From a virus, in the IMG/VR virus record IMGVR_UViG_3300046000_003404, positions 1-23,703 of that record: a stretch of 23,703 nt of DNA. One strand, given 5' to 3'. The notes beneath the pieces are model-generated. The model had not been told where the DNA came from and ran no database searches. It saw nothing but the letters and a program-made list of their open reading frames with translations. This document shows, piece after piece, positions 1-22,331 of this stretch (positions within the stretch are counted from its first letter, which is position 1; the number at the start of each line of letters is the position of its first letter). A program made the translations under genes and the position numbers.

Positions 1-62
1 AGATGCCAGTCGACCACCGGCAAGATGCGATGTTTGACTTCTACGAAGACAGTGTCGATTGA
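1..62 (+). CDS. C-terminal end of an unknown cassette gene (partial)
   Basis: The frame beginning at base 3 is open from the left edge and ends with TGA at 60-62, giving an acidic tail ending in DFYEDSVD. The stop lies two bases before the R'' box of the first attC-like site, as in the other cassettes, and this is why I prefer this frame. A second open frame, from base 1 to a stop at 79-81, would run into the attC L'' box and looks less likely. Nothing can be said about function. Confidence 0.5.
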   Translation, partial: MPVDHRQDAMFDFYEDSVD

Positions 63-64
63 TT

Positions 65-128
65 ACGCAACGCTGGCGTAACCGGCGCGCAGCGAAGCGG
101 AGCGTCCGCGTTGACGCAAATGTTAGAA
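65..128 (+). other. attC-like recombination site 1
   Basis: This is a 64-bp site. R'' is ACGCAAC at 65-71, followed by a 4-nt spacer. L'' is GCGTAAC at 76-82 and L' is GTTGACGC at 110-117. A 4-nt spacer leads to R' GTTAGAA at 122-128. L'' and L' pair over 7 bp with G113 extrahelical. The arm continues CGG/CCG and CGC/GCG, with C109 and T105 unpaired. The extrahelical G and T occupy the positions known for canonical attC sites. R'' and R' share only the AAC/GTT core, as expected when the neighbouring cassettes have different ends. R'' departs from RYYYAAC at one base. Confidence 0.78.
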
Positions 129-146
129 CTCAGGAGGGAATAGACC

Positions 147-353
147 ATGCAACTCAGAGAGGGCGAAGTGGCTTTTGTGATGGCGCAAATTGCGCTGCTG
201 AACTGCGAAGTGGCTGGCATGCAGGCCGAAAACACGCACCGCCTGAACTGCGGAAATTCCGTTGCCTACGGCGCGGACGAGTTCGCGGCCGTGCGGCAGC
301 AGTACGAGGCGCTGATCGGCAGCAACGCGATCTTAGAGATGGCGCGGTCATGA
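147..353 (+). CDS. Small phage-like protein of unknown function (cassette 2)
   Basis: This 68-residue product starts at ATG 147, nine bases after a strong AGGAGG at 132-137. A longer frame beginning at 59 has no such site and crosses attC site 1, so I rejected it. The sequence looks helical and acidic: an N-terminal helix (GEVAFVMAQIALLN), then AGMQAENTHRLNCG, a YGADEFAAVRQQYEAL segment and a short tail. It has no signal peptide or membrane segment. It resembles small uncharacterised accessory ORFs of phages, but I do not recognise a named family. It is the only gene of cassette 2. Its TGA at 351-353 lies inside the 11-bp terminal repeat that matches the cassette start. The strong ribosome binding site inside the cassette suits expression from read-through transcription. 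Confidence 0.75.
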   Translation: MQLREGEVAFVMAQIALLNCEVAGMQAENTHRLNCGNSVAYGADEFAAVRQQYEALIGSNAILEMARS

Positions 354-354
354 G

Positions 355-377
355 TTCTAACGAATGACGTGTTAGCC
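355..377 (+). other. Collapsed attC-like site 2 (R'' and R' only)
   Basis: R'' TTCTAAC (355-361) and R' GTTAGCC (371-377) are separated by only nine bases. The L''/L' arm and the loop are missing. R'' is the exact reverse complement of the R' box that opens cassette 2 (GTTAGAA, 122-128), and the match extends to 11 bp, so this is the cassette boundary. The simplest reading is that the central hairpin was deleted, which would leave cassettes 2 and 3 fused or poorly recombinogenic here. A sequence error is unlikely to remove a whole arm but cannot be excluded. Confidence 0.55.
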
Positions 378-397
378 ACGACACGCTAAAACGTGGC
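375..397 (+). promoter_or_regulatory. Short hairpin in the tad1-like leader
   Basis: GCCACG at 375-380 and CGTGGC at 392-397 form a perfect 6-bp stem with an 11-nt loop. It begins within the R' box of cassette 3 and ends about 14 bases before the ATG at 412. It could modulate translation or stabilise the leader. The stem is short and the role is inferred only from position. Confidence 0.3.
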
Positions 398-411
398 ACC
401 ACTGAGAGGAT

Positions 412-780
412 ATGAACGTGCGAACTTTGACTGACCATAAGATTAACCCCGGCAATGACACGCTGACCATTACCGTGCTGGACGAACCTGGGCACGGTGG
501 AGCAAACCACGCCTACGACATCGAAGGTGGCGAGGCGGTACCGACGCACCTGCGCTTTCAAAACGGCCCGATCAACGCGGACGGCAACGGCGTGAATGGC
601 ATTACTCACGAGGCGTTGCTTGCGGTGCTGTGTGACCGCCTGCGTGGGTTCCAGGCGGGGCAGTATGCCTGCAAAGCGAACGCTTGCGCACTGACCCACC
701 TGGAAGAAGCACAGCACTGGCTGCAACAGCGCACCATCGAGCGTATGCGGCGTGGCGTCGAAGGCACGCACACGGTTTGA
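412..780 (+). CDS. tad1: Tad1-like anti-defence protein (Acb2/Tad1 hairpin family), cassette 3
   Basis: The family sequesters cyclic nucleotide immune signals: Tad1 binds Thoeris gcADPR, and Tad1/Acb2 members also bind CBASS cyclic oligonucleotides, so the defence effectors stay inactive in the infected cell. The 122-residue product has the expected layout. An N-terminal beta part carries TLTDHKIN, LTITVLDEPG and GGANHAYDI; then come RFQNGPI and NGVNGITHEALL, followed by a C-terminal helical hairpin with DRLRGFQAGQYACKANA, LTHLEEAQHWLQQRT and a closing RGVEGTHTV. There is no signal peptide or membrane segment. GAGAGGA at 404-410 is only one base from ATG 412, so GTG 418 (giving MRTLTDHKIN) may be the true start, with better spacing. 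It is the only gene in cassette 3, with a strong hairpin just after its stop. The family assignment is from recognised sequence style; binding has not been shown. Confidence 0.8.
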   Translation: MNVRTLTDHKINPGNDTLTITVLDEPGHGGANHAYDIEGGEAVPTHLRFQNGPINADGNGVNGITHEALLAVLCDRLRGFQAGQYACKANACALTHLEEAQHWLQQRTIERMRRGVEGTHTV

Positions 781-787
781 TGTTATG

Positions 788-819
788 GCCGGCATGACGA
801 CGCGAGAACTCATGCCGGC
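788..819 (+). terminator. 10-bp perfect inverted repeat after the tad1-like gene
   Basis: GCCGGCATGA (788-797) and TCATGCCGGC (810-819) form a perfect GC-rich stem with a 12-nt loop. It starts seven bases after the TGA at 778-780. No T-run follows on the plus strand, so it is not a classical intrinsic terminator. It could protect the 3' end of the mRNA or weakly terminate. It overlaps the first bases of the next R'' box (817-823), so it may also compete with or extend attC folding. Confidence 0.45.
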
Positions 820-907
820 TAACGAACCAGCTAAGTGGCGCGCGTGACCAAGCCAAACGAAGCTGCGCCGGATGTTCGCGCGTCCCGCCTTGAGCGCCTT
901 GTTGGGC
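817..907 (+). other. attC-like recombination site 3
   Basis: This is a 91-bp site. R'' is GGCTAAC at 817-823, followed by a 6-nt spacer. L'' is GCTAAG at 830-835 and L' is CTTGAGC at 889-895. A 5-nt spacer leads to R' GTTGGGC at 901-907. L'' and L' pair over 6 bp with G892 extrahelical. The inner arm pairs 837-838 with 884-885 and 839-844 with 877-882, leaving T883 extrahelical. R'' is the exact complement of the R' opening cassette 3 (GTTAGCC at 371-377). R', L', spacer lengths and both unpaired bases fit the attC consensus. Confidence 0.82.
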
Positions 908-936
908 TTCTCTGGGCGATCATCTGGCGTCGATGG

Positions 937-1071
937 ATGACTGGGCCTGGCGGTCACAAGCGGCGAGTGGTGCGCGTTAAGGGGTGGCGCACAGCCATCG
1001 TCGAGAGCGACTGGGAAATGCGCGTGACGGTGACGCCGTGTTTCTCGGTTTTTGGATGGCGGTTCGATTGA
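937..1071 (+). CDS. Short basic protein of unknown function (cassette 4)
   Basis: This is a 44-residue product from ATG 937, rich in Arg, Lys, Val and Trp (HKRRVVRVKGWRTAIVESDW), ending CFSVFGWRFD. The same frame stays open back to GTG 835 or GTG 844, which would give 78 or 75 residues and add a hydrophobic LVGLLWAIIW segment. Those starts lie inside attC site 3, ahead of the cassette boundary at 901, so I chose the first ATG inside cassette 4. Neither start has a convincing Shine-Dalgarno sequence. The cassette is only about 175 bp long and the TGA sits four bases before the next R''. I do not recognise a family; it may be a real micro-protein or a cassette without a coding gene. Confidence 0.4.
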   Translation: MTGPGGHKRRVVRVKGWRTAIVESDWEMRVTVTPCFSVFGWRFD

Positions 1072-1075
1072 TGAC

Positions 1076-1143
1076 GCCGAACGCCTAGCTAACCGGCGCA
1101 GGCGGCCTTATCGCCTGCGTCCGGGTTGAGCGACGTGTTATGC
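1076..1143 (+). other. attC-like recombination site 4 (best preserved)
   Basis: This is a 68-bp site. R'' is GCCGAAC at 1076-1082, then spacer GCCTA. L'' is GCTAACC at 1088-1094 and L' is GGTTGAGC at 1124-1131. Spacer GACGT leads to R' GTTATGC at 1137-1143. L'' and L' pair over 7 bp with G1128 extrahelical. The arm continues GG/CC and an 8-bp stem CGCAGGCG/CGCCTGCG (1097-1104 with 1112-1119), leaving T1120 and G1123 unpaired around a 7-nt loop. R'' matches the complement of the R' opening cassette 4 (GTTGGGC) at six of seven bases. Confidence 0.85.
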
Positions 1144-1166
1144 CTTTGACAACGAAAGGATGCGCA

Positions 1167-1850
1167 ATGGAACACACAAAAGAGCGTTGGGAGTGGTCGG
1201 AGCACAAATTCAACGCGCCGCCGTTCGAGGGGACACTTGACCACGAATGCGGCATTTACCCACCAGACGGCGAGAGCGGCCCTGTGGCGATAGCCAGCGG
1301 GAAGAACGACGCACGGCGCATTGTGGCTTGCGTGAATGCTTGCGCCGGAGTGACGACGGAAGAACTTGAGCAGGGCGGGTTTGTTTCTGGACTGATTGAG
1401 CAGCGCGACGAGCTTGCAAAACTGTGCAACTACAACGAGCGCTTGATGCAGGACTGTTTGCGCCTGGCCGAAGAAGCGCCGCGCTGGCGTGATGTGGTTG
1501 ATGAGCTTCCGCAAGAGGCGCAAGAAGTGCTGTTTGTGCGTGACGGAAAGACAGTTCACGGCGCGTGGATTGGCGGGATATTCTGGCACAGCAACAAGAA
1601 GATGGCCGCTGCGCAATGGATGCCACTGCCGAAACCGCCAACGGCGGCGCTTGCGAGACGGCGGCCTGTGGCGTGGATTCGGTTTTGCAGCGACGGATGC
1701 TACGAGGGGCCGATCATGGACGCACAGATTGAAGATGTGCGAAAGCAAAGCGGGGCATGGACTCCGCTCTATAAGCACAACGACTTGCGACTGGTGCAGG
1801 TTGGTCCCTGCACATGCAGCGACCACGAATGCGGGGAGTGCATGCGATGA
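1167..1850 (+). CDS. DUF551-type phage accessory protein (cassette 5, first gene)
   Basis: This 227-residue product starts at ATG 1167, six bases after AGGA at 1157-1160. An in-frame ATG at 1140 lies inside the R' box and has no ribosome site. Residues 46-67 (KNDARRIVACVNACAG) match the segment common to small phage accessory proteins. Residues 107-157 form the DUF551 pattern: WRDVVDELP, VLFVRDGKTVHGAW, then AAQWMPLPKPP. Residues 167-202 (PVAWIRF, GAWTPLY) resemble the C-terminal module often joined to it. The tail has a Cys cluster (CTCSDHECGEC, residues 215-225) that could bind a metal. No biochemical role is known for DUF551. The last codons overlap the next gene as ATGA, so the two are probably translationally coupled. 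Confidence 0.8.
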   Translation: MEHTKERWEWSEHKFNAPPFEGTLDHECGIYPPDGESGPVAIASGKNDARRIVACVNACAGVTTEELEQGGFVSGLIEQRDELAKLCNYNERLMQDCLRLAEEAPRWRDVVDELPQEAQEVLFVRDGKTVHGAWIGGIFWHSNKKMAAAQWMPLPKPPTAALARRRPVAWIRFCSDGCYEGPIMDAQIEDVRKQSGAWTPLYKHNDLRLVQVGPCTCSDHECGECMR

Positions 1851-2089
1851 ACTTCGACGACTGGATGGCTACGCAAAACCCTAAGTACATGCCGACCGAC
1901 GACACTGTGGCGCTGAGGTTGCTGCGCGATTGCTGGAGAGCGGCGGAGTTCCACAGTGATAGAGCGCAGGAGCGCGAGCGGATGATTGCACTGATGCGAG
2001 ATAAGTGCAGGAAAGTCGGCGCTGACAGGACGGCGGCACCTCATGGGCGTTGCGGCATACCAGGAATGCTTGGACACCATGAGGCATAA
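1847..2089 (+). CDS. Small unknown protein coupled to the DUF551 gene (cassette 5, second gene)
   Basis: This is an 80-residue product from ATG 1847, overlapping the upstream stop by ATGA. An in-frame upstream ATG at 1814 lies inside the preceding gene and is less likely. The N-terminus (MNFDDWMATQNPKY) is acidic and aromatic. A helical, charged middle follows (LRLLRDCWRAAEFHSDRAQERERMI), and the tail is Gly- and Pro-rich. There is no membrane segment. It resembles unnamed phage accessory ORFs; I assign no function. Its TAA at 2087-2089 lies within the R'' box GCATAAC. Two coupled genes within one cassette is unusual, since most integron cassettes carry one. Confidence 0.7.
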   Translation: MNFDDWMATQNPKYMPTDDTVALRLLRDCWRAAEFHSDRAQERERMIALMRDKCRKVGADRTAAPHGRCGIPGMLGHHEA

Positions 2090-2090
2090 C
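2084..2090 (+). other. Left half of a truncated terminal attC site (R'' only)
   Basis: GCATAAC is the exact reverse complement of GTTATGC, the R' box opening cassette 5 at 1137. The match extends to nine bases (1137-1145 against 2082-2090). Downstream there is no recognisable L''/L' arm and no GTTRRRY box before the convergent Nudix gene ends at 2138. The array therefore stops at a broken site here. The 47 bases from 2091 to 2137 hold no gene and no obvious bidirectional terminator. Confidence 0.55.
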
Positions 2091-2137
2091 GCATGAGACA
2101 CAGCAGAATTGACGTATAACTGCGAAATCTAGATGTT

Positions 2138-3361
2138 TTACTTCATGCCAGCCTTGCTGATGACATCGTGATCTGCTTCGCTATCCAGATACAGATGAAG
2201 ATCTGACTCTGGAACAAGATGCGCTGCCTGGCTCTCCCAGCCAACGTCCGCAGGCGTTCCTCCGACACGAACCGCATGATAGTAGCGTGTTACAGATGAC
2301 GTCCGGTCGACGTCACAGGCATAGCCTACGATCTTCACCTTCAGGCCGGATTCTTCGAACACTTCCTTGATGGCATTCGCCTGCCAGGACATCTCGTCCT
2401 CGATTTTCCCTTTAGGGAACGTGTTTTTATAGCCGCCGAACTGGTTGGTCGGAGACACCAGCCAGACACGACCATCCGGCTCTTTGATGATGCAGCCTGA
2501 TGCCGGCTTGAGTCCTTGCTTCAGATGCATGACAGGCTCGTCCAGGTCTTCCATCTGCCCTTCGACGTAATCCCACTCTTCGTCGGTCTTGGGATGATCC
2601 AGCCAGGGTGACAACGCGAGTCCGTTCAATTCGTCCGGGCAAGCGCCACCAGGGATGAACGTCGCCGTCTTCTTCTGGTCGTGCCAGGTTTCAGGCGCAG
2701 TCTGATGATTCGGGTTGTAGATCCCGACCGGCTTACCGTTGTCGCCGTTCTTCGGGTGGTAGACCTTGGGCGGCGCTTTCGGCAGCGTGTGGAACAGGAA
2801 CGAGCCGCCACCCATGCCGTACTGCGGCGCGACAATCTTCTGGTGCGGCTGCGTACTCAGTTTCTTGATCTTGCCGGAGTCGGTGTGCTTGATGCGGAAC
2901 AGCGATCCTTGGCGCTCGTAGTCCTTGACGACCGTGCCGTCCTTCTTTGTGTGACCGTGGACGTGCGACTTCGCCATCGTCTCGCCACCGGCAAGCATTT
3001 TGTCTACTGCCTTCTTTGCGTCTTCAATGCCGCCAGGATTCGCCCATGCCTGCGCACGGTAGTGGTCAGAGGACTTCTCTCCGGTGGATGGGTTGACGAC
3101 CAGTTTGTAATCATGCCGGTCGAGTATCTCGAACACCGTGGTAACAGTTTTCTTCGTGCCAGCCTTCATCTGCCCAAACACAGATTTTGTTGCCTTTTTC
3201 GAGCCTTCACGCTTGAACACGCGCAACCGAAAGCCACGATACGGCTCGCCGACGTTGTGCTCAGTTCTTGAGTCCTCATGGGCGCGAACGGCTGTGCCGT
3301 CTTTGCGCACAAAGCCGTGGACGTGCGACTTCAACAACCCGGAGTCGGTGACAACGATCAT
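2138..3361 (-). CDS. Nudix-domain phage protein with duplicated SHVHG/KDGT module
   Basis: This 407-residue product starts at ATG 3361, overlapping the upstream stop by ATGA, with AAAGGA seven bases ahead. A longer frame to 3466 lies inside the upstream gene and is rejected. Residues 11-24 and 131-144 are two copies of a KSHVHG..(R/K)KDGT..V module. Residues 288-400 form a Nudix fold. The Nudix box (318-340) keeps G318, E333, E336, E337 and G339, but has Met at 324 where the first Glu is expected and Lys for Arg at 332. Nudix enzymes cleave nucleoside diphosphates linked to another group; the substrate here is unknown. It is the last gene of the late operon, close to the giant ADP-ribosyltransferase protein, so action on NAD, ADP-ribose or a nucleotide signal is attractive but inferred. 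Confidence 0.8.
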   Translation of the reverse strand: MIVVTDSGLLKSHVHGFVRKDGTAVRAHEDSRTEHNVGEPYRGFRLRVFKREGSKKATKSVFGQMKAGTKKTVTTVFEILDRHDYKLVVNPSTGEKSSDHYRAQAWANPGGIEDAKKAVDKMLAGGETMAKSHVHGHTKKDGTVVKDYERQGSLFRIKHTDSGKIKKLSTQPHQKIVAPQYGMGGGSFLFHTLPKAPPKVYHPKNGDNGKPVGIYNPNHQTAPETWHDQKKTATFIPGGACPDELNGLALSPWLDHPKTDEEWDYVEGQMEDLDEPVMHLKQGLKPASGCIIKEPDGRVWLVSPTNQFGGYKNTFPKGKIEDEMSWQANAIKEVFEESGLKVKIVGYACDVDRTSSVTRYYHAVRVGGTPADVGWESQAAHLVPESDLHLYLDSEADHDVISKAGMK

Positions 3362-3852
3362 GCCGGCATCCTTTCTTCTGCTCCCATCAGAACTTTGACC
3401 GCGTACTGCAGCGACGGCTTGAGCATCACACCAAACAGCATGTCGTCGCCATCGGCCAGCTTCCACTTCTCGATAACCAGCGCAGCCAGCCAGTCGAACA
3501 GGACCGCGACAGGATCATCGGCGAACTCATGCCGGTGAGCATGCCAATGCGGTCCCAGGTCAATCTTCAGCTTGTTGCCCAGCGTGAAGTCGTTATAGCC
3601 ATTGATGATGCTGTAACCAGGGTCACGCCCGGAGAAGATGCCGGCCAGACGGGTGATCTCAGAGCCAAGTTCAGCATGCGCAGAATCTCCCGGAACCTCT
3701 CCGGAAGACGCTGCCATGGCAATCGCTTCAACCTTGGCGGCGAATCCACCAACCAAGCCGGCGACTACATCAGGATTGCCAAGACTGGTCGCGCTTGACG
3801 GGTCCGAGAAGGCTCCTGGCGATACACGATAACGGTCTCTTTCTTGTCCCAT
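3358..3852 (-). CDS. Unknown 164-residue phage protein
   Basis: The start ATG at 3852 is preceded by AAGGAG with nine-base spacing (in the minus-strand reading). This supports translation even though the first 88 bases overlap the end of the giant gene in another frame. The sequence has a Ser/Pro/Gly-rich N-terminus and a helical part (VVAGLVGGFAAKVEAIAMAA), then GYNDFTLGNKLKIDLGPHWHAHRHEF. A hydrophobic helix follows (DDPVAVLFDWLAALVIEKW), then a C-terminal helix. The HWHAHRHEF segment is His-rich and could bind metal. I do not recognise the family. Its stop overlaps the Nudix start as ATGA, so the two are likely coupled. Its place beside the giant protein and MuF suggests a virion or chaperone role, by inference only. 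Confidence 0.75.
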   Translation of the reverse strand: MGQERDRYRVSPGAFSDPSSATSLGNPDVVAGLVGGFAAKVEAIAMAASSGEVPGDSAHAELGSEITRLAGIFSGRDPGYSIINGYNDFTLGNKLKIDLGPHWHAHRHEFADDPVAVLFDWLAALVIEKWKLADGDDMLFGVMLKPSLQYAVKVLMGAEERMPA

Positions 3853-6800
3853 TCCGAATTACTCCTTAACGATTTCGCCAGCGTCTGGCCTTTAAGTTGA
3901 GCCACGAAGCCAGTGTCTGGCGGCAGCATGATAACGTCGATGAATACGCCTTGCGGGTGGTTGTGACCGCCAGGCTGAACATCGACTACCAGATACCGCT
4001 GGCCCGGCAACGTTGTCAGTTCGCCCTCACTGCCGAGAGAGCCTGTGCCATACGTCGGCGTTGCTTTGCACCCTGCCGCGCAGCGAATCCGCATCTTGAT
4101 CTGCTTGCCGTCCCCGTTCGTAAAGTGCGGCGAGTCGCCCCAGCTTTCGTGGAACGAGGTACACATCGAGTCCGTGTTCTGCAGTATAGCGCCCGGCTTG
4201 GTGGCGAGAAGCTGCTTGGTCATCGACTTGCCAGCCGTGTCGTCGTCCATCCATCGCCACATCTGCGTGCCTTCAGGAAGATCCACAGCGTCGTCGTAGA
4301 TGCCAGCCGTCACCTTGTTGATCGGCGTCGAGTCGTATGACGACTTGCCATGCGACCACAGATGGTTTGCAGCACCAGAACCCTGCACACTTGAGATGTA
4401 GGTCTTGGTCGTGCTCCTGACCTTTTGATAGGCAGCCTTGAGCATTCCAGCGAACGATGTTCCTGACTTCTGCCAGAACCACTTCGTCCTTTTCAACAAC
4501 GCGACAGCATCGCCTTCATCGATCTGGCACAACTTCATGAAGTACCCGAGACGGTGCTCCTGCGGGATTGTCGTCACGTTCTGGCCTGGCGCGAAAGAAC
4601 CGACCGCATCGGCAATCTCGCTGACCAGACCGAAGCTGCCAAGCGACGGCATCTCCAATGTTTCGACAGGAGGATAGCCAATCGACTGCAGCGTCTGGAC
4701 CAGCGACGCCCACTGCTGCTGGATGTGGTTGGAAGGATGCTCTGTAATCGGCTTCTTGCCGATGGACTGGCCGGTCTCCTTGTCCACCGCGTCGTAGTGG
4801 TAATCCTTCAACGCCTTCAGGTTGCCTTGCATGGCGAAGGCTGCCAGAGCCGCGCTGTCGGCGCTGTTTTTGTCGTTGACGTGCTGCTTCGAAGATACCG
4901 GCTTTCCGCCGTTCAGCGTGTTGAAGTCAAGCGGCGGCTTGATGTCGGCCGGGTCGACGGTCAGCTTTGTCTCATCGACCGGAGGCGTATCCCACTGGTC
5001 GACAATTCCCATCTGCTTCAGGACGTCAGCGCGCCTGGCAATCAGCTTCTTGGCAAGCGCGGCCTTTTCCGCATCCGTGCCAGGCCCGGCAATTTTGCAG
5101 AGTTCTTCGATTTGCGACGGCTTCAACTTGTTCAACTGCTTGCCACCCCAGGCAATCGATGCGTCCGTAGCGCCGGCAAAGACCGCCGCAGCCTTGGCGT
5201 TCTTGCCGTAGTCCTTCATGGTCTTCAACTCGGCAACCGTGTCGCCGAAGTCCGCGCCCTTCTTGCCGCCCATGGCACGGTAGTCGAGCGAACCGCCCAC
5301 GTCGATGCGGACAGCGCCGCCTGAACTGTTGAGCAGCAGGTTGTCGTTCGCCATGCCGACGACATCCCAGTTGCCGATCCAGGCGTCGATGGCGAATGCC
5401 TGGTGTGCGCCAGCTGCGCTGGCAAGATTCTCAGCGCTGCCCTTCTTCATCCCATCAACCCACTTCGAGGCGATACCCAGCTTGCCGTCCTTTTCGACCA
5501 GCTTCAGCGTCGGAACATCGACGCCAAGCATCTGGTAGAACTTGGCAGCCAGGAATTCGCTGCGCACCATTTCGGCGTCGGCCGGGAACTTGCAATACCA
5601 CTCCTGCCCGCCTTTGTCCTTGAACTTTCCGCCAGGGTTTGAACCCAACTGCGGACCAGTCTGCGGCCAGGAATCCATTACCGAAACGTGGTCGCCAAGC
5701 TTTGACTTGGCAATCGAGATCGGCGCTGCCGGTTCAACTTTGTGCCAATGGCCGTTTTGGAACACCAGCATGCCATCCGCGCCCTGCTTGGTATCGCCGT
5801 CCTTCGGGCTGGCAGATTGAGCGGCAGTAGAACCCAGTGCAGCGGGGTCAACGCCTTCTGCTTCCGGATCGAACTTGCCAAGCGCAGCGGCATGCATTTG
5901 CTGGCAGAACTTGTAGAACTGTTGACGACGAACAAGCGTCGAGATCGATGTACATTTTCCTGTTTTGAATCCAGTGACGTTTTGCTTCGCCGAAACAGAG
6001 CCGTCGTTGTGGAAAGTGACGTACTGCTTCAACCCTGTAACTCCGCCATTCAATACTGCGTTCTTTATCGCAGTCGAGATGTTGACGTAGATTTTTGAGT
6101 TTTGATGCGGATCAAGCGTCTCGTAATCCGGTACCGGAACTGCCGCTATCTGCTGCGCCTTGGTCAGTTTTTTCTTCTTCTTGAAGACGATGACAATCGG
6201 CGGAATCTCGGTGGGTATTGGCTCGAAGCCGGAAGAGCCGACATAGCTGTAACCGTTTGCGCCCTTCATTCCGACCAGCTTGATCGCAGCCTTGACCGCC
6301 GCGTCGTTGCTGGCATGGACTTCGTCGCCGCTGTGGCCTTTCTGCCCGATCTTGCCGTAGGTCTTGGTCAAAACAGTGCCATGGACCTCGACCTTGTAGA
6401 ACTTGTTGTGCCCTGGTTTTTTGTTTTCCATGTGCGCAATCCACTTGTACCCGGTGGCAGGCTGCGCAGCAGGAGCCGCAGGAGCTGCAGCCACACCCTT
6501 GATCTTGTCCAGCATTCCGGAATCCGGCATGTGAACGCCGAACATCTTGTCCAGCGTGTTGCGGACGTCGTTTTTGTCGAACGCGGACCATGGGCCAGAA
6601 CCGCTACCATCGGCATCGGATGTGCCAATTTGGTACTCTTTCAGGTCATTGTCCCAGCCCACATAGATGGTTGATGTGGCTGTGTGCTCAAGCAGGATCA
6701 CGTTGTTCCCGCTGAACCCTTCGTCGTTCATCGACACTTGCCAGGTGCCGGATGGCGCAGGAGCATCGGACGCTGCCGGCTTGGCCGATTCCTGCTCGGC

Positions 6801-9476
6801 CTTTTCCTTCAGAAACTCCTGCTGTCCATTGGTCAAAGAATGCCAAAGCGCCCACATGGTCTTGTCCGTGTTGTCGGTCTGCGGCATGCCAGCCGAGATC
6901 CACAACTTGAGCGCGTGCTCGTCTTCAGCAGACACATTGGATGGAGCAACCTGCAAGTGCCAGCGACCGTTGAACAGGACGTAGTTCTTGCCGTTGATTT
7001 CCTTGACGTCGCCCTCTTTCGGCCCGCCTTCCTGCGTTTTCTGGCCTGGATGAAAGGCCAGGTTGAGCATCTTTATCGGGTCAGCGCCTTCGTTCTGGAC
7101 AGCAACCTCGACCGCAAGTTCATAGGACGCTGAGTGCATCGGCGGCGATGCGGGAGCAGGAATCTCGCCGGCCAGCATCGAGAACATGGCAGCCTTCCAG
7201 CCGTTCTTGCTGTAATCCTGTCCGGTCAAGATGTTCTTCCAGGAGCCGTCCTTCTGCTTCTGGTAGTTGTGCCCTTTGTACGAAGCGTTCACCGCCATCT
7301 TGCCAGCGGCAGCATCCATCTTGCCGGCCGTTTGCATGGCCTGGTCGAGCGCGTACATCGGAGAAGACCAGCCGTCGCCGTCCAGTTCATCGTCGATGAA
7401 CGACTGATAGAAGCCATCGGCAGTCTTGACGACCTTCACATGGTGCCCGTTTACGTTGTCGAACAACACAGTCTCGCCGGCAGCAGGAGGAACGTCAGGC
7501 ATTACCGGAGCACCGACCTTGCCGCCTTGTTTCTTGTTTTCCGCCTTCAAGTGCTGGACTGCCGTCTTCAACGCGGAAGGTTTCAGCCCTGCGTTGTTCG
7601 CCAGAGCCGTAACGACACGCTCCAGCGCTTCACTCGGAACGTGGGCGAGGACCGACATATGATCAATCACGGCGTTGATTGCTTCCTGCGACGGCATGTC
7701 GGGAGTGGATGGCTTCGAAGCTGCAAGCCACTGCTCTCCTGCCTTGTCGATCAAGTGACCAACTTTATCCAGCCCATGCTTGGCAATCGCCGCACTTATG
7801 TGCTGCTGGCCGTTCAGTTCCTCGTAAGTCATTGCTTCGTGCTGCTCGACAGTCGGCACCTTGCCGGCATCGAGCGAGGCGTGCCAGCCATCAACGCCAG
7901 GGATGGTGTGCGGGTCAACGTCTGGCGCGACCTCTGATTCATGCAGCCACACGGCAACCTGCTTCGGGTTGAATCCGTTCTTTTGATACGTCCCTTGATC
8001 GACACTGGATAGGTGGGCATACACCGTCTCGTCGGCCGAGAGCTTTGCGCCGATGGCGAGCAGATACCACTTGCCACCGTCGTAATCGACGACCTTCTTG
8101 TCGGCCATCTTCGCCTGGTATTCTGCCTTTTCTTTTTCGGCTAAAGACGGCGACTTGTGCCAACGCCCGTCCTTGAAGGTCAGCGTCCCGCCTTCGCCTT
8201 GCTTGGTGTCGCCATCCTTCGGCGAATCATCCGCTTGCAGCACCACCTTTGCAGTACCGGCAGCGAGCGCAGCGTGCAGCGTCTCCTTCGGGATTGAGAC
8301 GGTGTTCTTCGGGCCAGGCACCGTCGCTCCGACCTTGTGCATCTGGTAGGAGTCTGCGCTCTGGTTGTAGATCGTCCAGTCGCCCGCGTTCATCTTGGCG
8401 TACTGGCTGTCCAGCTTCAGCACAGCGCCGGTCTTGAGGTCCGGGTGCTTGGCAGGCTCTGGTACCGGAGCGGCAATGTTCGCGGCATTCCAGCCGACAG
8501 ACCACTCCTGCAGCGCGTCCATGTATTCGGCATACGGCAGATGGTTGTGCGCCTGCAAGAAGTCCTGGTCGATACCTGCTGCGTGCGGCTTTCCAGCAGC
8601 GAACGCCGCTGCGCCGTATTCCTTCGGGGTCATGGGCTTCTTGTCGTTCGCATCGACATGAACAGGCGACGTGTCGCTGTTTTCCGTTTTCTTCGACACG
8701 ACACCCATCAATGCCTCGGCCTTTTCAGCGCCAATGGCCGACTCGATATCTGTCGCCATTTTGGCGACTTTGACCGGGTACTTAGCTGCGTACTCGAAGT
8801 ACGCCTTCTTCTGGCCGGAAGTCGGCGTCTGGCCGGCGAGCATTGCCGCCTTCCAGCCCGAAACAGCAGCGGACAGCGAAGCCTCGGCCTGCAGATCGGT
8901 GGCGTGCGCCAGGACCAGCATCGCCTTGTCGTGGTCGCCAAGCGCGCCGAAGTCTTTCAGTTCCGCCGACAGCTTCTTGTGCGCGGCTTTCTGGTAGTGC
9001 GAGCCTTGGCCGTTTCCGACCTTGGCATGGTCGTGGTCGTCCGAGACGTTGACCATCTTGTGATGGGCATGGATTACCGTGCCGTCCTTCTTCACCGACG
9101 CAGGAATCCACATCTCCTTTTTCACGGTCGCCTTCAGCAAGTCCTCGGTGAACACCAGTATTGACTTGTGAATCGGCACGCCGGAAGACTTCGCGTTCTG
9201 AACAGCCGCATGCAACTGCTCGGCGGTTGCACCTTCGCCGCCGAATAGATCGTTCGTGCATTTTTCAGGCTTCTTCATGCATTCGTCAGAGAACGGCGAC
9301 GCCTTCATGGGTGGTGCTTTCGGACGGGCGAACAGATCAGACGTGTGCGCGTCCTTGGAGGCTCCGCGCGAGTTTGAATGCGGTGACACCTGGACGACGC
9401 GACCGTTGGCAAGGCGACGCTCGTAGCCACGCACAGCGCCCTTGATGATGTCGGTGACGAAAAACATGATGGTCAT
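3765..9476 (-). CDS. Giant polyvalent phage protein: WGR, HipA/PI3K-like kinase and ADP-ribosyltransferase signatures
   Basis: This 1903-residue protein starts at ATG 9476, three bases after the MuF stop, with GAAGGG ahead. Residues 10-30 and 124-135 carry the same R(R/K).(N/D)G..V module seen in the Nudix protein. A helical region with repeated GW.AA..AG..PT motifs spans about 200-890. Linker repeats of the form PK(D/E)GD.K...(F)..G.WH lie at 419-441, 818-841 and 1223-1246. A WGR-like domain lies at about 1010-1072 (KFYKVEV, YGKIGQKG). A kinase-like domain lies at about 1255-1495, with K1296, D1371, N1377/D1378 and an RIDVGG motif around D1392. An ADP-ribosyltransferase-like domain at about 1690-1890 has R1741, T1773/S1774 and an E1817-x-E1819 pair. 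Such polyvalent proteins are thought to be packaged in the head and injected. Catalysis is predicted, not shown; the kinase call is the least certain. Confidence 0.8.
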   Translation of the reverse strand: MTIMFFVTDIIKGAVRGYERRLANGRVVQVSPHSNSRGASKDAHTSDLFARPKAPPMKASPFSDECMKKPEKCTNDLFGGEGATAEQLHAAVQNAKSSGVPIHKSILVFTEDLLKATVKKEMWIPASVKKDGTVIHAHHKMVNVSDDHDHAKVGNGQGSHYQKAAHKKLSAELKDFGALGDHDKAMLVLAHATDLQAEASLSAAVSGWKAAMLAGQTPTSGQKKAYFEYAAKYPVKVAKMATDIESAIGAEKAEALMGVVSKKTENSDTSPVHVDANDKKPMTPKEYGAAAFAAGKPHAAGIDQDFLQAHNHLPYAEYMDALQEWSVGWNAANIAAPVPEPAKHPDLKTGAVLKLDSQYAKMNAGDWTIYNQSADSYQMHKVGATVPGPKNTVSIPKETLHAALAAGTAKVVLQADDSPKDGDTKQGEGGTLTFKDGRWHKSPSLAEKEKAEYQAKMADKKVVDYDGGKWYLLAIGAKLSADETVYAHLSSVDQGTYQKNGFNPKQVAVWLHESEVAPDVDPHTIPGVDGWHASLDAGKVPTVEQHEAMTYEELNGQQHISAAIAKHGLDKVGHLIDKAGEQWLAASKPSTPDMPSQEAINAVIDHMSVLAHVPSEALERVVTALANNAGLKPSALKTAVQHLKAENKKQGGKVGAPVMPDVPPAAGETVLFDNVNGHHVKVVKTADGFYQSFIDDELDGDGWSSPMYALDQAMQTAGKMDAAAGKMAVNASYKGHNYQKQKDGSWKNILTGQDYSKNGWKAAMFSMLAGEIPAPASPPMHSASYELAVEVAVQNEGADPIKMLNLAFHPGQKTQEGGPKEGDVKEINGKNYVLFNGRWHLQVAPSNVSAEDEHALKLWISAGMPQTDNTDKTMWALWHSLTNGQQEFLKEKAEQESAKPAASDAPAPSGTWQVSMNDEGFSGNNVILLEHTATSTIYVGWDNDLKEYQIGTSDADGSGSGPWSAFDKNDVRNTLDKMFGVHMPDSGMLDKIKGVAAAPAAPAAQPATGYKWIAHMENKKPGHNKFYKVEVHGTVLTKTYGKIGQKGHSGDEVHASNDAAVKAAIKLVGMKGANGYSYVGSSGFEPIPTEIPPIVIVFKKKKKLTKAQQIAAVPVPDYETLDPHQNSKIYVNISTAIKNAVLNGGVTGLKQYVTFHNDGSVSAKQNVTGFKTGKCTSISTLVRRQQFYKFCQQMHAAALGKFDPEAEGVDPAALGSTAAQSASPKDGDTKQGADGMLVFQNGHWHKVEPAAPISIAKSKLGDHVSVMDSWPQTGPQLGSNPGGKFKDKGGQEWYCKFPADAEMVRSEFLAAKFYQMLGVDVPTLKLVEKDGKLGIASKWVDGMKKGSAENLASAAGAHQAFAIDAWIGNWDVVGMANDNLLLNSSGGAVRIDVGGSLDYRAMGGKKGADFGDTVAELKTMKDYGKNAKAAAVFAGATDASIAWGGKQLNKLKPSQIEELCKIAGPGTDAEKAALAKKLIARRADVLKQMGIVDQWDTPPVDETKLTVDPADIKPPLDFNTLNGGKPVSSKQHVNDKNSADSAALAAFAMQGNLKALKDYHYDAVDKETGQSIGKKPITEHPSNHIQQQWASLVQTLQSIGYPPVETLEMPSLGSFGLVSEIADAVGSFAPGQNVTTIPQEHRLGYFMKLCQIDEGDAVALLKRTKWFWQKSGTSFAGMLKAAYQKVRSTTKTYISSVQGSGAANHLWSHGKSSYDSTPINKVTAGIYDDAVDLPEGTQMWRWMDDDTAGKSMTKQLLATKPGAILQNTDSMCTSFHESWGDSPHFTNGDGKQIKMRIRCAAGCKATPTYGTGSLGSEGELTTLPGQRYLVVDVQPGGHNHPQGVFIDVIMLPPDTGFVAQLKGQTLAKSLRSNSEWDKKETVIVYRQEPSRTRQARPVLAILM

Positions 9477-11078: not shown

Positions 11079-13208
11079 TTACTGCAATCTCTCTCGGTGC
11101 TCTGCACCTTTACCTCGATACGTTTGTGTCTTAGCCGCATCTTCGTGCAACTGTGCCGTAAGGTACGGTGTCACGCCATCATCAGCATAGACGGTCATAA
11201 CGCCAGTTGTCGGGTCAGTGACCGTTTTGTTCCTCAAAATCGCACTACATATCAGCATCTTGTCTGCAAAATCTACGGCTGTTGCGTGCGTCCATACCGC
11301 ATCTGATACTTCGGTTTTGGTCGGGATCAAAGCAATCAGTTCTGCCAGCGTCATATCGCCATCCTCTGTATAGATAATTGTGCCAAGCGTATCGATGGTG
11401 GATAGCGACCCCACCGAAGACGTAATGGCCGCACCGATAAGCGACTTCGTGCGGAGTATATCGAACGCACCAAACCCTACGGTAACTTGCGATCCAGTAA
11501 CGCTGGCAGATCGTTCATTCGAAAGCGCACCAGCCGATGTCGTCGCCGAAGCGCCAGATAGTGCGATTGTTTTGTCGCATACAAGAGAACCTTCTGAGAC
11601 ATGGATTTCATCGCCATCAACCACCGCTGATCTGGCGATAGTGAACGTGCCAACGTCAGCCGAAACATGAGCACCGGTAAGCGCGACCAGAATCTCTTTG
11701 ACCGGCGTAACAGTACCAACTGAAGTTGTCGTCTGAGAGCCAACTAATGCAGCAGTTTTTCCTACGGTGGCTGATAGTGCGCCAACAGATGTTGTGGCCG
11801 ACACACCAGCCAAAGCTACAGTCTTCGCGTGACCCAATATCCCGGTTGAAGTTGCGGCATTCGCGCCAGTCAGTATGGCCGTTTGCGCGACCGTAGCGAC
11901 CAGCGTACCAGCATCGGTTGTGGCCGCGCTGCCAGAAAGCGGCTTGCTGACTTGAAGCGCTGTGGTGCCTGCCGATACCGTGACTTCCGCCCCGATAAGC
12001 GCCGCCTGCTTGGACTCAGCGTAGCTGACAGACCCGGATGACGCAGTGACCGACGTTCCTGTCAGTGCGACGGTCTTCGCGTGCGCCAGCGTACCAGCAG
12101 CGGTCGTTACTTCCGACCCAACCAGCGATGCTGCGCCTTCTACGACTGCGACAACTGTGCCAGCCTGGGTCGAGACTGATGAGCCAGCGAGTGCTACCGC
12201 GTTTGCTTGCGCCAGCGTACCGGCTGAGGCAGCGACTTGCTGCCCGGTAAGGGCTGCGGTCTTAGCATGGGCCAGTGCCCCCGCTGATGCTGCGACTTGT
12301 TCTCCAGTCAGCGCCCTCGTATTAACAACCGAGAGCGTGCCGGTTGAGGCCATGACTTGCTGGCCGGTCAGTGCAGCGGACTGTGCGGCGGTGGCTGTGA
12401 GCGTGCCGGCGTGAGTTACTACAGACACCCCAGAGATCGCGGAAGTTACGTCCGCACTGCCCAGTGCGTCGAACTGAACCCACGACACCTTGACGCTGAT
12501 GATGTGGAGCGTGCCCGCCGAAGCTGTGACTGAGCCGCCTGTCAGTGCAGCGGATTGTGCGACGGTCGCGGAGAGCGTGCCGGCTTGTGTGGTTGATGCC
12601 GCTCCCGCGAGTGCCTTGATGTGCTGCTCGGAGATGCTACCCGTAGAGGCAGTCGCTGCGCTGCCAGTCAGCGCGACAGTCTTTGATTGCGCCAGCGTAC
12701 CGGCTGAGACAGCGACTTGCTGCCCGGTAAGGGCTGCGGCCTTCGCGTGCGCCAGCGTGCCAGTTGAGGCAATGGCTTGATCGCCGGTCAGCGCCTTTGT
12801 ATTGACAGCCGAGAGCGTTCCGGTTGAAACGAGGACTTGTTGGCCGGTCAGCGCAGCGGACTGTGCGACGGTGGCTGTGATAGTACCCGCCTGAGATGCT
12901 GCCGAAGACCCAGCCAGCGCCTTGCTGCTCTGTACCGACACACTACCTGCTGTGGCAGTGAGTGCGCTTCCAGTCAGGGCAACATTGATGTCCGTTACCG
13001 CAGAAGCGGTGATTGTCCCGGTGGACGTTGTGACCGCACTACCACTCAGTTCAAGTGACTGAACCGCCGCAATCGTGCCGACCGACGCTGTTACCGCTGA
13101 TCCAACGAGCGCAACAGATACGTCCGTCACCGCCAGTGCATCGAACTGCACCCACGAGACTTTTACGTCTACTGCTGCAGACTTGCCATAGATTAGCAGC
13201 AGCGACAT
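11079..13208 (-). CDS. Long repeat protein, probable tail-associated (27 units)
   Basis: This 709-residue protein starts at ATG 13208, with only a weak ribosome site. After an N-terminal KVSWVQFDA segment there are 27 consecutive units, mostly 20-22 residues, of the pattern (A/S)L.G........(A/V)GT(L/I). They are rich in Ala, Ser, Thr and Val and predicted beta. The SWVQFDA segment recurs inside unit 10. The C-terminus (from about residue 600) is different: MTLAELIALIP, LRNKTVTDPTTG, MTVYADDGVTP and a closing RGKGAEHRERLQ, matching the end of many phage tail-region proteins. Such repeat arrays probably form an elongated or decorative virion part. At the DNA level a segment of about 210 bp is duplicated with a 480-bp offset. 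Confidence 0.75.
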   Translation of the reverse strand: MSLLLIYGKSAAVDVKVSWVQFDALAVTDVSVALVGSAVTASVGTIAAVQSLELSGSAVTTSTGTITASAVTDINVALTGSALTATAGSVSVQSSKALAGSSAASQAGTITATVAQSAALTGQQVLVSTGTLSAVNTKALTGDQAIASTGTLAHAKAAALTGQQVAVSAGTLAQSKTVALTGSAATASTGSISEQHIKALAGAASTTQAGTLSATVAQSAALTGGSVTASAGTLHIISVKVSWVQFDALGSADVTSAISGVSVVTHAGTLTATAAQSAALTGQQVMASTGTLSVVNTRALTGEQVAASAGALAHAKTAALTGQQVAASAGTLAQANAVALAGSSVSTQAGTVVAVVEGAASLVGSEVTTAAGTLAHAKTVALTGTSVTASSGSVSYAESKQAALIGAEVTVSAGTTALQVSKPLSGSAATTDAGTLVATVAQTAILTGANAATSTGILGHAKTVALAGVSATTSVGALSATVGKTAALVGSQTTTSVGTVTPVKEILVALTGAHVSADVGTFTIARSAVVDGDEIHVSEGSLVCDKTIALSGASATTSAGALSNERSASVTGSQVTVGFGAFDILRTKSLIGAAITSSVGSLSTIDTLGTIIYTEDGDMTLAELIALIPTKTEVSDAVWTHATAVDFADKMLICSAILRNKTVTDPTTGVMTVYADDGVTPYLTAQLHEDAAKTQTYRGKGAEHRERLQ
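12207..12900 (-). repeat. 480-bp-offset internal duplication in the repeat gene
   Basis: Bases 12207-12263 match 12687-12743 with two differences in 57. Similarity continues at the same 480-bp offset through about 12420/12900 (for example TGGCCGGTCAGYGCAGCGGA at 12361 and 12841). In protein terms units 12-14 mirror units 5-7. The offset is a whole number of codons, so unequal recombination between copies would keep the frame. Confidence 0.75.
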
Positions 13209-19484: not shown

Positions 19485-19891
19485 GGTGAGACAACACGGT
19501 AGGCGACAGAGCCAATATGAAGCTCTCCACCGGGCTGCACCGTGAGTGATTCGTTGATATTCAAATTTCCTTCGTCGCCACCGGTCAGTCCGACAGTTCC
19601 ATCAAAAACAGAATCTCCGGAAACGGTTGACGCGCGGAACCAGACAGCATCTTTGCCGCCTGATGTGTTTGTATCCGGAGTCAACGGGAGCGATAGAATC
19701 ACACCGTTGACAGCAGGATTGAATGCCGGTAATCCGAACCGAAGCGTTGCGAGCGGAATGTCCGCCGGCGCTATGTCGCAAGATGCTGGCTTCGCATCCC
19801 CGTAGACGTGCAGATACCCGTCATCAAGACTTGAACCAACAGCATCCGCCTGCAGATTGACGGCGAACGTCGAAACCTTCGTCTCACGCAT
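19481..19891 (-). CDS. Small beta-rich phage protein, unknown function
   Basis: This 136-residue product starts at ATG 19891, with AGGTGAG ahead, and overlaps the portal stop by eight bases. It contains TFAVNLQADAVGSSLDDGYLHV, then PLATLRFGLPAFNPAVNGVI, KDAVWFRASTVSGDSVFDGTVG and a strand-rich end (LTVQPGGELHIGSVAYRVVSP). I associate this layout with a family of small phage proteins found near portal or connector genes. No enzymatic motif is visible. A head-closure or decoration role is inferred from position. Confidence 0.65.
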   Translation of the reverse strand: MRETKVSTFAVNLQADAVGSSLDDGYLHVYGDAKPASCDIAPADIPLATLRFGLPAFNPAVNGVILSLPLTPDTNTSGGKDAVWFRASTVSGDSVFDGTVGLTGGDEGNLNINESLTVQPGGELHIGSVAYRVVSP

Positions 19892-22331
19892 CGCTCACCT
19901 CAACACTCATCGAACCGTCAGGATTGCGGCGAACGGTCTGGCTGCGCGGCTTCTGTTCCGGCATCTGCAGCGTCAGGTTTATTTCCATCGGCTTGCGCTC
20001 TTCTGCGAGCATGGCGGTCAGCGCCTTGGTCATGTCGTCCGGTTTGCTGGCTGCATCCGCGACAGCATCGATGCGAACAGTTTGCTCGGCGAGCGCAGCA
20101 GAAAGTGCATTTGTCTGGTCGGCCATTGCCTTCTGCATGGCATCGACCAGCGGTTGCATGTCCGTTGCTGCAACATTGATCACAGGGGCTGGAGACTCGG
20201 CCGGAAGATAGACGGTTTTCTCAACCACGGTCGGATCTGACTTGACCAGCGGTTTGCCCAGCACAATCTCGCGCTCGTCGGCCATGTCTTCGTCGTCCTC
20301 TGGCATTTCGCCGGAAAGGAAATGGCGCTTGCCGGTCAGCGGGTCTTCGACAACGGAACCAGACTCGCCACGATCAACGACGTGGTACTGACGCTCGGCA
20401 CGTTTCTTGTGACCACGGAACGCATCCCAGAGCACGCCGCTAAACTTGCCGTCTCCAGCGTCTACGGTCATCCCATCCTTGCCAATGGCGCGGACACGAC
20501 CGGAAGTCACGCCTGATTCTGGGTGACTATAAAACACCTCGTCATCGATTCCGACACCGTACTGGTTCGCTTTTAGGAGGGATTCACCCAATGCGTCTCC
20601 AGACTTCGCAAGACCAGATTTGTCGTCATCGCCAGCACGATCCCCACCGCTATTGTCAGAACCGACAGAACCACTACCAGCGCCAACAATGCCGCCCTTT
20701 CCCTCATCGTCATCGTTTTCGTCTTTCTGTTCGCTACCGTCCTGCTCTTCTGCACCGTCTTCTCCATCTTCCTTGTAATCTGGGTGTTGCTCTTCGCCGC
20801 TTGTGTCCGGGCCTTGCTCGGCCTGTTGTTGCTGCTGCATGTCGTTCATCCACGCACCGACCAGCGACGGGTTTGCAGGCGCATCGCCCCAAACAGCGTC
20901 GCTCTTTTCGTACCCCTCTTGAGCGCGGATTTCGTTGATCGACAGAATCGCCTTCTTGAGTTCGTGCCGCTTCTCCTGGTCAACCTCGTCAACCCCGGTC
21001 CAGCGGAAAACGTACTTGTCGCCAAAGTCGCCCAGGACGTAATCGGTAAACAGGTTCTCGAAATAGGACAGCAGCGGGCGCAAGCCCTTGTCCTTCGAGT
21101 CCGCCAGGCGCTCTGCGGTATCGGAGCCGGACAGCGCGGACTTGCCTGAACTGAACGATTCGAAGTTGATCTCGTCCGGCGCAATGCCGTAGACGGCGCA
21201 GATGATCGAAGCCAGGAAGGTCATCCACTTCGAGAAGTACATCTCATTGAATTCGACGCCGAAGTTCTCGAAACTGGCCTTGCTCTCCTGGTCCTTGGAG
21301 ATCATCACCGGGACGGTCCAGGAGTTGTTAACCCCCTTCACCATCGAGTTCCAGTAACGCTTAAACGCCGCCAGGTCATCCGCGCCATAGTTGCCGGTCA
21401 TGTGCAGCACGCCGCGCGGGATGGAGTTGTCCGAGAAGCCCCGGATGTTCAAGGTCATGGCGTTCAGGAAGCCGGTGACAACGCGCACCAGAAGCTCGGT
21501 CTCGGACAGGCCATAGCCAGCGGTCAGCACATTCGACTGCGGGTTGCGCGGCTCGTAGACCAGATCGTAGTGCGAGTAGGCAGCCCTGATCTGCCCCTGA
21601 ATAACCTGCAGCGCGTAGATTTTGTCGTCGCCCCGGTAGCCTTCCTCGGAGCACAGGCGGATGGTCGCGCCATCGACCGCGTACAGGCCATCAATGCCGA
21701 GACTGCGGTCGCGCTTGAATTCCGTCTCAATGGCGCAGGAGTCCATGACCAGCGAGTCGCGCACCGCTTTAGCCATGAAGCTGCTGAACGTATCGCGGCC
21801 AAGGATTTTCCGTTTGCGCGGATTGAACTCCCAGCCGCAGTTAATGAAGAAGCGCTGCAAAAGCTGGACCGATTCGTCCTCGCTCTTGGTCAACTGGTGT
21901 GTCTTGTCGATGTGGTTGATCGTGAAGCCCGGACCGTCGCCAGACTCCTGCACTTTGCAGAAGGCGTTGACCTGGCGGATGCGGGTCAGCATCACCGCAC
22001 CGAGAACCGGAGTCTGATCGACCATCGCGCGCAGCATGTCGAACGACATATTGCCAGGACGTTCGATGTAGTCGCCCTGTAAGGTAATTGTAAGGTCGTC
22101 AATCTTGACCGACTGCATACCCTTCTTGCCGGCGTTCTTCGATGGGAACGGAATGACGTTGGCCTTGAGCATTTGCTGCTCACGCCAGAGATTCGCCACA
22201 TGATCAATCATCGGGCGGATATTGTCGGAATGGACGATATCGGCCCGCGAAATGGAGGCTTTTTGCAATTCCGACTGTGCGTCGTATCGCTCGTCGGCCG
22301 GAGCGCTCTGATCGAATGCTGGTGAAGTCAT
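19884..22331 (-). CDS. Portal protein with long acidic C-terminal extension
   Basis: This 815-residue protein starts at ATG 22331 with little visible ribosome site. Portals form the dodecameric vertex channel for DNA packaging. Residues 80-510 carry portal-like features: FDMLRAMVDQTPVLGAVMLTR, FNPRKRKILGRDTF, YDLVYEPRNPQ, GYGLSETELLVRVVTGFLNA, VYGIAPDEINFESF and FTDYVLGDFGDKYVFRW. A Gln run and then a very acidic Asp/Glu/Gly/Ser stretch follow (about 515-585). A small beta domain (GIDDEVFYSHPESGVTSGRV to GVLWDAFRGHKKRAERQYHVV) and a tail with helical Ala/Gln segments (MQPLVDAMQKAMADQTNAL) complete it. It is about 300 residues longer than a simple portal. It lies directly after the terminase, as usual. 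Confidence 0.82.
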   Translation of the reverse strand: MTSPAFDQSAPADERYDAQSELQKASISRADIVHSDNIRPMIDHVANLWREQQMLKANVIPFPSKNAGKKGMQSVKIDDLTITLQGDYIERPGNMSFDMLRAMVDQTPVLGAVMLTRIRQVNAFCKVQESGDGPGFTINHIDKTHQLTKSEDESVQLLQRFFINCGWEFNPRKRKILGRDTFSSFMAKAVRDSLVMDSCAIETEFKRDRSLGIDGLYAVDGATIRLCSEEGYRGDDKIYALQVIQGQIRAAYSHYDLVYEPRNPQSNVLTAGYGLSETELLVRVVTGFLNAMTLNIRGFSDNSIPRGVLHMTGNYGADDLAAFKRYWNSMVKGVNNSWTVPVMISKDQESKASFENFGVEFNEMYFSKWMTFLASIICAVYGIAPDEINFESFSSGKSALSGSDTAERLADSKDKGLRPLLSYFENLFTDYVLGDFGDKYVFRWTGVDEVDQEKRHELKKAILSINEIRAQEGYEKSDAVWGDAPANPSLVGAWMNDMQQQQQAEQGPDTSGEEQHPDYKEDGEDGAEEQDGSEQKDENDDDEGKGGIVGAGSGSVGSDNSGGDRAGDDDKSGLAKSGDALGESLLKANQYGVGIDDEVFYSHPESGVTSGRVRAIGKDGMTVDAGDGKFSGVLWDAFRGHKKRAERQYHVVDRGESGSVVEDPLTGKRHFLSGEMPEDDEDMADEREIVLGKPLVKSDPTVVEKTVYLPAESPAPVINVAATDMQPLVDAMQKAMADQTNALSAALAEQTVRIDAVADAASKPDDMTKALTAMLAEERKPMEINLTLQMPEQKPRSQTVRRNPDGSMSVEVSDA

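Follow-up and report, generated by a model that had tools for sequence, protein, structure and literature searches.

The stretch of DNA analysed here, which we call the window, is the whole 23,703-b IMG/VR record IMGVR_UViG_3300046000_003404, and judged from sequence its bases 1-2143 are an integron cassette array belonging to a phage (Table 1). Integrons are best known for the assembly of antibiotic resistance genes. Both strands of the whole window were scanned, unfiltered, with R1, a covariance model made from 26 bacterial integron attC sites beside intI, set in gene direction and including no phage site. R1 returned three significant matches, exactly where the original prediction had placed attC-like sites (65-128, 817-907 and 1076-1143; sites A, C and D), and no others, the best remaining match reaching 9.6 bits (E 2.4).

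Anatomy of the array

Each of the three sites combines R''/R' boxes (RYYYAAC/GTTRRRY), L''/L' boxes and extrahelical bases with a model score of 31-46 bits. All are assigned by R1 to the minus strand and the called cassette genes lie on the plus strand, placing the sites in inverted orientation relative to the genes. The box order that had been described is present, with the R''/L'' and R'/L' labels exchanged because the sites are minus-strand, and the extrahelical G and T reported on the right arm are there as well. In bacterial integrons it is the left arm of an attC, read in gene direction, that carries the extrahelical bases; their location on the plus-strand right arm therefore identifies the plus strand as the attC bottom strand, and this, the inversion of the sites, is how they have to be read. 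With three attC within 1.1 kb and no IntI, the array falls under the definition of a cluster of attC sites lacking an integrase (CALIN; at least two attC, no integrase). It is not a complete integron with intI and attI, and its genes do not run in attC direction as those of a typical bacterial array do. Bases 1080-1141 of site D are 98% identical over 62 b to an attC in another viral contig (G005), and the array gave no match in Rfam and none in a DNA similarity search against plasmids.

The set of three sites was nevertheless incomplete, and we add a truncated site B (355-377) and an R' box that closes the array (2084-2090). On its own site B is not significant (R1 8.8 bits, E 3.6) and lacks the features of a full attC, and its boxes pair at four of four variable bases with both neighbours. 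Because a cassette derives from a circle, pairing is expected between its own two ends rather than between those of one site, and this is also the reason that a strict scan for R''/R' pairing failed, the boxes of one arrayed site belonging to two cassettes. Across the window the variable bases paired, out of four, are 4, 4, 3 and 4 between the two ends of each cassette, as in a circular cassette, and 0, 2, 2 and 2 inside each site. The array is therefore divided into four cassettes, the third with a doubtful open reading frame (ORF) and the fourth with two genes.

The array is part of the phage, as the original prediction had considered, and adjoins a convergent late operon that gene and family searches trace from base 2138 on, with a NUDIX protein, portal and terminase. 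Two larger viral contigs from other samples, of 85,367 b and 51,711 b, match 13.5 and 13.2 kb of the window at 99.99%, and in both bases 1-2143 are free of mismatches, with early genes upstream and the late operon downstream. In the 85-kb contig the array follows the last of the early genes, which share the strand of the cassettes. The proposed extension to the left thus led to early phage genes and to no IntI above the cut-off; elsewhere that contig has a weak tyrosine-recombinase match. By DNA, the nearest named phages are Aeromonas phage ST4 and Bordetella phage PHB04 (portal, 73-75%).

Table 1. Features of the array and of selected late genes in the window (position 1 is its first base).
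Feature	Position	Strand	Basis or remark
Last early gene before the array, 3' end	1-62	+	120 aa in the 85-kb contig
attC site A, complete	65-128	-	Left box ACGCAAC, right box GTTAGAA; R1 31.5 bits, E 2.6e-5
Cassette 1 gene, 68 aa	147-353	+	ORF, called in the 85-kb contig; no Pfam or PHROGs match
attC site B, truncated	355-377	-	Both boxes and short spacers, without L boxes or loop
Cassette 2 gene, 122 aa, Tad1 family (Thoeris anti-defence 1), putative sponge	412-780	+	Profile, predicted structure, phrog_2428
attC site C, complete	817-907	-	R1 35.5 bits, E 3.1e-6
Cassette 3 ORF, at most 78 aa, overlaps site C	835-1071	+	ORF only; start uncertain; not among the called genes of the 85-kb contig
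attC site D, complete	1076-1143	-	R1 45.7 bits, E 1.5e-8
Cassette 4 gene 1, weakly DUF551-like	1140-1850	+	PHROGs 3.6e-4; Pfam 0.025, under cut-off; called start 1167
Cassette 4 gene 2, 80 aa	1847-2089	+	Called gene; no family match (Pfam, PHROGs)
Orphan R' box GCATAAC, array end	2084-2090	-	All four variable bases pair with those of site D's right box
NUDIX-domain protein, last gene of the convergent late operon	2138-3466	-	Pfam PF00293 3.6e-10; start uncertain
Portal protein	19884-22331	-	phrog_12 4e-40
Terminase large subunit, runs off the contig	22515-23702	-	phrog_38 1.4e-61

Two further late genes of the window encode repeat proteins: one of 1,903 aa with repeated PKDGDTKQG-type segments (3765-9476, minus strand), and one of 709 aa made of degenerate short repeats (ALTG..., SAGTL...; 11079-13208, minus strand) that is perhaps a tail or surface protein.

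Reversed gene orientation in phage arrays

We surveyed the orientation of cassette genes in viral loci of IMG/VR, reached through an attC pattern (41 loci) and through an alignment of IntI (the best 80 of 226 stretches with a relative), from contigs that are metagenomic except for MW202573, TJE1 and a few isolate-derived records. Intervals were oriented with a custom gene caller, which is rough, and with R1 for the sites; duplicates were removed before the viral counts, and intervals inside one array are not independent. Among 67 viral loci, with the isolate-derived L274 left out, 242 intervals are inverted, 8 are sense and 2 have no call; with L274 the counts become 244, 18 and 2, and by array 64 inverted, 3 sense and one tie. 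Loci on contigs with a terminase give 81 inverted and 5 sense intervals (24 loci without L274; 83 and 15 with it), and the set reached mainly through the Tad1 gene gives 38 inverted, 2 sense and 2 without a call. A gene caller trained on bacteria, applied to all entered viral loci without deduplication, returned 275 inverted, 26 sense and 10 without a call. From the IntI set 199 of 206 R1 matches were entered, and the seven left out (four in L311, two in L322, one in L284) would add three inverted intervals (L311) and one sense interval (L322).

Bacterial controls have the opposite bias, with 100 intervals sense, 21 inverted and 18 without a call of 139 (33, 8 and 7 of 48 in one set; 67, 13 and 11 of 91 in the other). 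The control regions were 40 hand-picked from 140 genomes with IntI, of which 30 were scanned, five of these having no matches, and the ten left unscanned were each about 2 kb or less. In the bacterial loci 97 of 98 R1 matches, many of them training sites, point away from intI, the single exception being the weak mirror image of a genuine site. MW202573, a circular phage from GenBank, has five R1 matches (52, 43, 41, 24 and 16 bits, the last with E 0.12), all of them opposite to the annotated genes. We find that the flipped format, in which genes are reversed relative to attC, is widespread in phages and characteristic of them. R1 found no sites in P12002L nor in the first 50 kb of PH101, and the model therefore misses some site types.

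A block of ordinary host cassettes inverted as a whole on entry into the phage would account for attC lying antisense to phage transcription, and the probability of this is practically nil, as it is ruled out by geometry: inversion of a block keeps the relation of gene to attC, and here that relation itself is changed. We also hold it very improbable that the viral contigs are mislabelled bacterial integrons or chimeric assemblies. L274, which is mostly sense (10 of 12), and a few class 1-like viral IntI rows would suit such an error, yet a terminase (E <= 0.001) was found on 30 of the 80 contigs, 28 of them over the cut-off, by two families alone, which fail to detect the terminase of the window's own phage. 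Furthermore, 81 of 86 intervals on terminase contigs are inverted once L274 is left out, the window array stands in two further contigs, and MW202573 is arranged alike.

Some loci have layouts of their own. TJE1 is the clearest named exception to the flip. L274 (contig G069) has 10 sense and 2 inverted intervals with IntI and terminase on one contig and is possibly a prophage call running into a bacterial integron. L322 (8058-10836) has a viral IntI with two plus-strand sites past its 3' end and co-directional genes, a Treponema-like layout, and in L311 (9544-10972) a viral intI is followed, past its 3' end, by four more minus-strand sites separated by plus-strand genes, inverted cassettes on the opposite flank of the integrase.

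Phage-encoded integrases

Contig G009 (24.8 kb) encodes a repressor, primase, RusA, terminase and portal together with an IntI that scores 465.7 bits against a cut-off of 265, is 58% identical to IntI1 and occurs at 100% identity in five contigs, each sampled elsewhere. On G009 the cassette genes share the direction of intI, whose start codon lies 63 nt downstream of attI; in L218 (6645-10494), the locus on this contig, a complete integron with IntI, attI and flipped cassettes lies within one operon of a lambdoid phage. When the loci of the IntI set are placed with intI on the plus strand, 203 of 206 R1 matches are on the minus strand, the exceptions being two in L322 and one far site in L284. 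For 36 IntI loci, hand-picked from 50 with a match and including near-duplicates, the stretch from the last site to intI has co-directional genes in 38 of 40 cases. Of the 37 IntI contigs searched, 18 carry a terminase of one of the two families. Most arrays are seen without IntI, and many are on fragments.

In a quick and rough tree of 106 IntIs, whose bacterial rows are the best-scoring hidden Markov model matches and IntI1-like sequences rather than a random sample, 56 viral rows fall together (SH-aLRT 95) in a single group free of bacterial rows. This group holds 31 of the 32 IntIs with inverted arrays. Among 369 bacterial genomes the best match to the G009 IntI is 70% identical and adjoins phage-type recombination genes; second by score comes a match of 62% identity, and one partial match has 66%. 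Six viral IntIs (L322, L350, L351 and L357-L359) form a separate supported group outside the main viral clade, and L316 / L264 (contig G060) may mean that the flipped format arose a second time or that IntI was swapped. An IntI-like integrase, 45% identical to the phage IntI, is also encoded at 4686-5639 of KX853513 (Virus Rctr41k).

Exchange of cassettes between related phages

The original prediction saw in such an array a means of shuffling genes by an integron integrase, and the support for this comes from the box pairing in the window and from exchange between related phages that carry IntI; turnover is unseen in the phage of the window itself. Two IntI loci, L236 and L239, have 99.9% identity across the 7,186 b leading up to the array, and the 1,335 b running from attI to the end of intI are the same in both. 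The cassettes between differ, one locus having five sites and the other a single site without any called gene. The shared sequence breaks off at TGCTAAC, which is the R' box of the first site, and picks up again at AACTTAAATTCG, 63 nt ahead of intI. To the left of that attI base L240 carries yet another, third sequence; the pairs L236/L237 and L238/L239 each agree. Junctions at att cores, as they appear in these contigs, are what integron recombination would predict.

The pairing seen in the window extends to the viral set, where the boxes of one cassette pair at 3.73 of four variable bases (192 of 233 perfect) and the boxes within one site at 2.44, as against 2.47 (sd 0.04) after shuffling; pairs without AAC/GTT cores were dropped from this count. 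Such pairing across a gene, and junctions at crossover bases, have no explanation at the RNA level, and the two strands of one MW202573 site differ in score, at 51.6 and 8.9 bits. The notion that the hairpins act as RNA, as terminators or processing sites that resemble attC by convergence, is for these reasons extremely improbable, even though they are located between co-directional genes and their structure is kept.

A further possibility is that the array of the window is a relic, captured once by illegitimate recombination and immobile since, with no further exchange. The phage of the window has no IntI, its array is identical in three contigs and one site is truncated, all as a relic would have it, and capture by homologous or illegitimate recombination is suggested in the available parts of Qi et al. 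(PMC9892861). We nonetheless consider a relic unlikely: a host array is not an obvious source for inverted genes when 100 of 121 oriented bacterial intervals are sense, cassette 2 recurs in seven other viral contigs at 84-95% DNA identity, and three sites retain scores of 31-46 bits. For the phage of the window cassette exchange is an inference, its array being identical in three contigs.

The occurrence of related phages and genes without attC, which had been named as something that would speak against the prediction, gave a mixed result, since backbone and gene both occur also without sites. Of 44 relatives identified by portal or NUDIX protein 24 contigs were searched, and two have a weak site (29.7 and 27.1 bits), one of them with a second match of 16.7 bits. 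These two relatives, found by portal (L361 and L362; contigs G029 and G025), may hold first insertions or relics. Among 80 viral loci with a Tad1-family relative, 10 carry attC matches, two of the 10 being the window's own phage. Backbone and Tad1 gene without sites elsewhere fit a recent acquisition of mobile cassettes, and the sites of the window stand. In L091 and L097 homology to cassette 2 starts at base 362, beside the core of truncated site B.

Cargo of the cassettes

The product of cassette 2 is a predicted Tad1-family anti-Thoeris/CBASS sponge, a membership supported by both sequence and fold. A profile of 28 relatives matches the Tad1 chains in the Protein Data Bank (PDB) at E 1.6e-25 over nearly the full length, and the structure predicted for the protein (pLDDT 81) resembles Tad1 7uaw (E 8.8e-9, TM score 0.79). 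In Pfam the protein itself has only a hairpin match under the cut-off; this hairpin is matched at E <= 0.01 in 10 of the 28 relatives. By this likeness to Tad1 (PDB 7uaw, 8kbb-8kbh) the protein probably disarms bacterial immunity; it differs from the characterised proteins in that its gene is an integron cassette and its binding of gcADPR or cyclic nucleotides is a prediction.

The wider cargo was scanned in the best-scoring 140 of 224 non-redundant cassette proteins (Pfam, E 0.001), among which 24 families account for 33 matches in total, and at least 107 of the 140 proteins are therefore without a Pfam match. The families include N6/N4 methylases (5), Dam (3), C5 methylase (1), RNA ligases (2, one of them RLIG1) and one each of Lar, a Tad2-like domain and the Acb2/Tad1 hairpin. 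The PADLOC matches of the cassettes, among the matches listed (25 of 132 families), are almost all methyltransferases. Such phage-cassette cargo as can be named is largely for counter-defence, in the window a putative Tad1 sponge.

A model for phage integrons

We propose a model for the array of the window that most reasonably fits these observations and the systems already described. The cassette genes of bacterial integrons are directed away from intI and read from the cassette promoter Pc. The window very probably holds a phage-borne CALIN in the format characteristic of phages, in which attC keeps its usual polarity to attI and intI and the genes are flipped. An integron integrase would fold the attC bottom strand, here the plus and coding strand, and cut at the R' box, and cassettes would enter or leave as circles at attC or attI cores. 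Phage cassette genes are directed to attI and intI, forming the distal part of a phage operon that phage transcription may read through, and in IntI-bearing phages the usual order is phage genes, cassettes, attI and intI, all in one direction. In the phage of the window IntI may have been lost or never present, and new cassettes would then depend on an integrase supplied in trans, either by the host or by a co-resident phage, a source at which we can only guess. Beyond the window, we think it likely that phages own a separate integron system, with a dedicated IntI clade, attI beside intI and a pool of flipped cassettes that are read within phage operons and on which phages lacking an integrase, that of the window among them, draw in trans. 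Such a pool would carry Tad1, Tad2-like proteins, Lar, DNA methylases and RNA ligases, and its flipped cassettes would be antisense to Pc in bacteria.

Several observations weigh against this model. Site B is truncated and the box pairing between sites C and D has one mismatch. The window is without IntI, and none scores above the cut-off in the 85-kb, 51.7-kb or 18.1-kb contigs; the mismatch-free array in two other contigs means that no turnover is seen in this phage. Of the 46 array or Tad1-cassette contigs just three have an IntI above the cut-off, one of them isolate-derived, G009 being outside that set. Three of 68 viral arrays are sense; L322 is sense with sites past the 3' end of intI, and TJE1 (L212, 244-1519; Tetrasphaera phage), a published phage CALIN, is in normal bacterial orientation in two of two intervals. 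The 21 of 121 bacterial intervals called inverted may be partly an error of our own gene caller, and the IntI of L316, which has an inverted array, sits among bacterial IntIs. Finally, the exchange contigs diverge again past intI into two types, and they are therefore closely related mosaic phages rather than one clone, in which other recombination acts too.

Relation to known systems

Phage CALINs, active phage attC and a few phages with IntI are already published, as the available parts of PMC9892861 make clear. There Qi et al. (2023) describe integrons or their components in 21 phages; the cases with IntI are Vibrio, Shewanella and class 1 integrons, a few temperate phages carry IntI, and the integrase-less attC clusters include MW202573 (Fig. 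2D). The same parts report that five of six assayed phage attC recombine with attI1, that methyltransferases are among the cargo, that site directions diverge in P12002L and that several ORFs lie between sites in MW202573. They do not state a general gene inversion, a phage IntI clade or exchange between phages, and TJE1 of that set is in normal orientation in our analysis.

With class 1 and chromosomal integrons of Proteobacteria the phage system shares attC structure, crossover at the R box, attI by the 5' end of intI and, in G009, an IntI 58% identical to IntI1; it differs in having flipped genes, read toward intI from the phage side. In Treponema integrons, according to the parts of PMC3607928 available, intI and cassette genes are co-directional with intI running toward attI; G009 has the same co-directionality, with attI upstream of intI and the genes flipped. 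PMC11023631, as far as its available text goes, ties the choice of the bottom strand to a cassette orientation suited to expression from Pc. Titles and the beginnings of abstracts in the open-access literature, with subscription papers and most preprints outside this search, mention no flipped phage cassettes, phage IntI clade or Tad1 cassettes.

If this model is true, a phage-specific integron would allow phages to exchange counter-defence genes with one another unit by unit. The flip of the genes would then explain how two cassette economies share their recombination chemistry and remain unmixed in expression, and phage and bacterial cassettes would form separate pools. The shuffling of accessory phage genes would become directly testable, and the unnamed genes beside Tad1 and methylases in flipped arrays would offer a route to the discovery of anti-defence genes.

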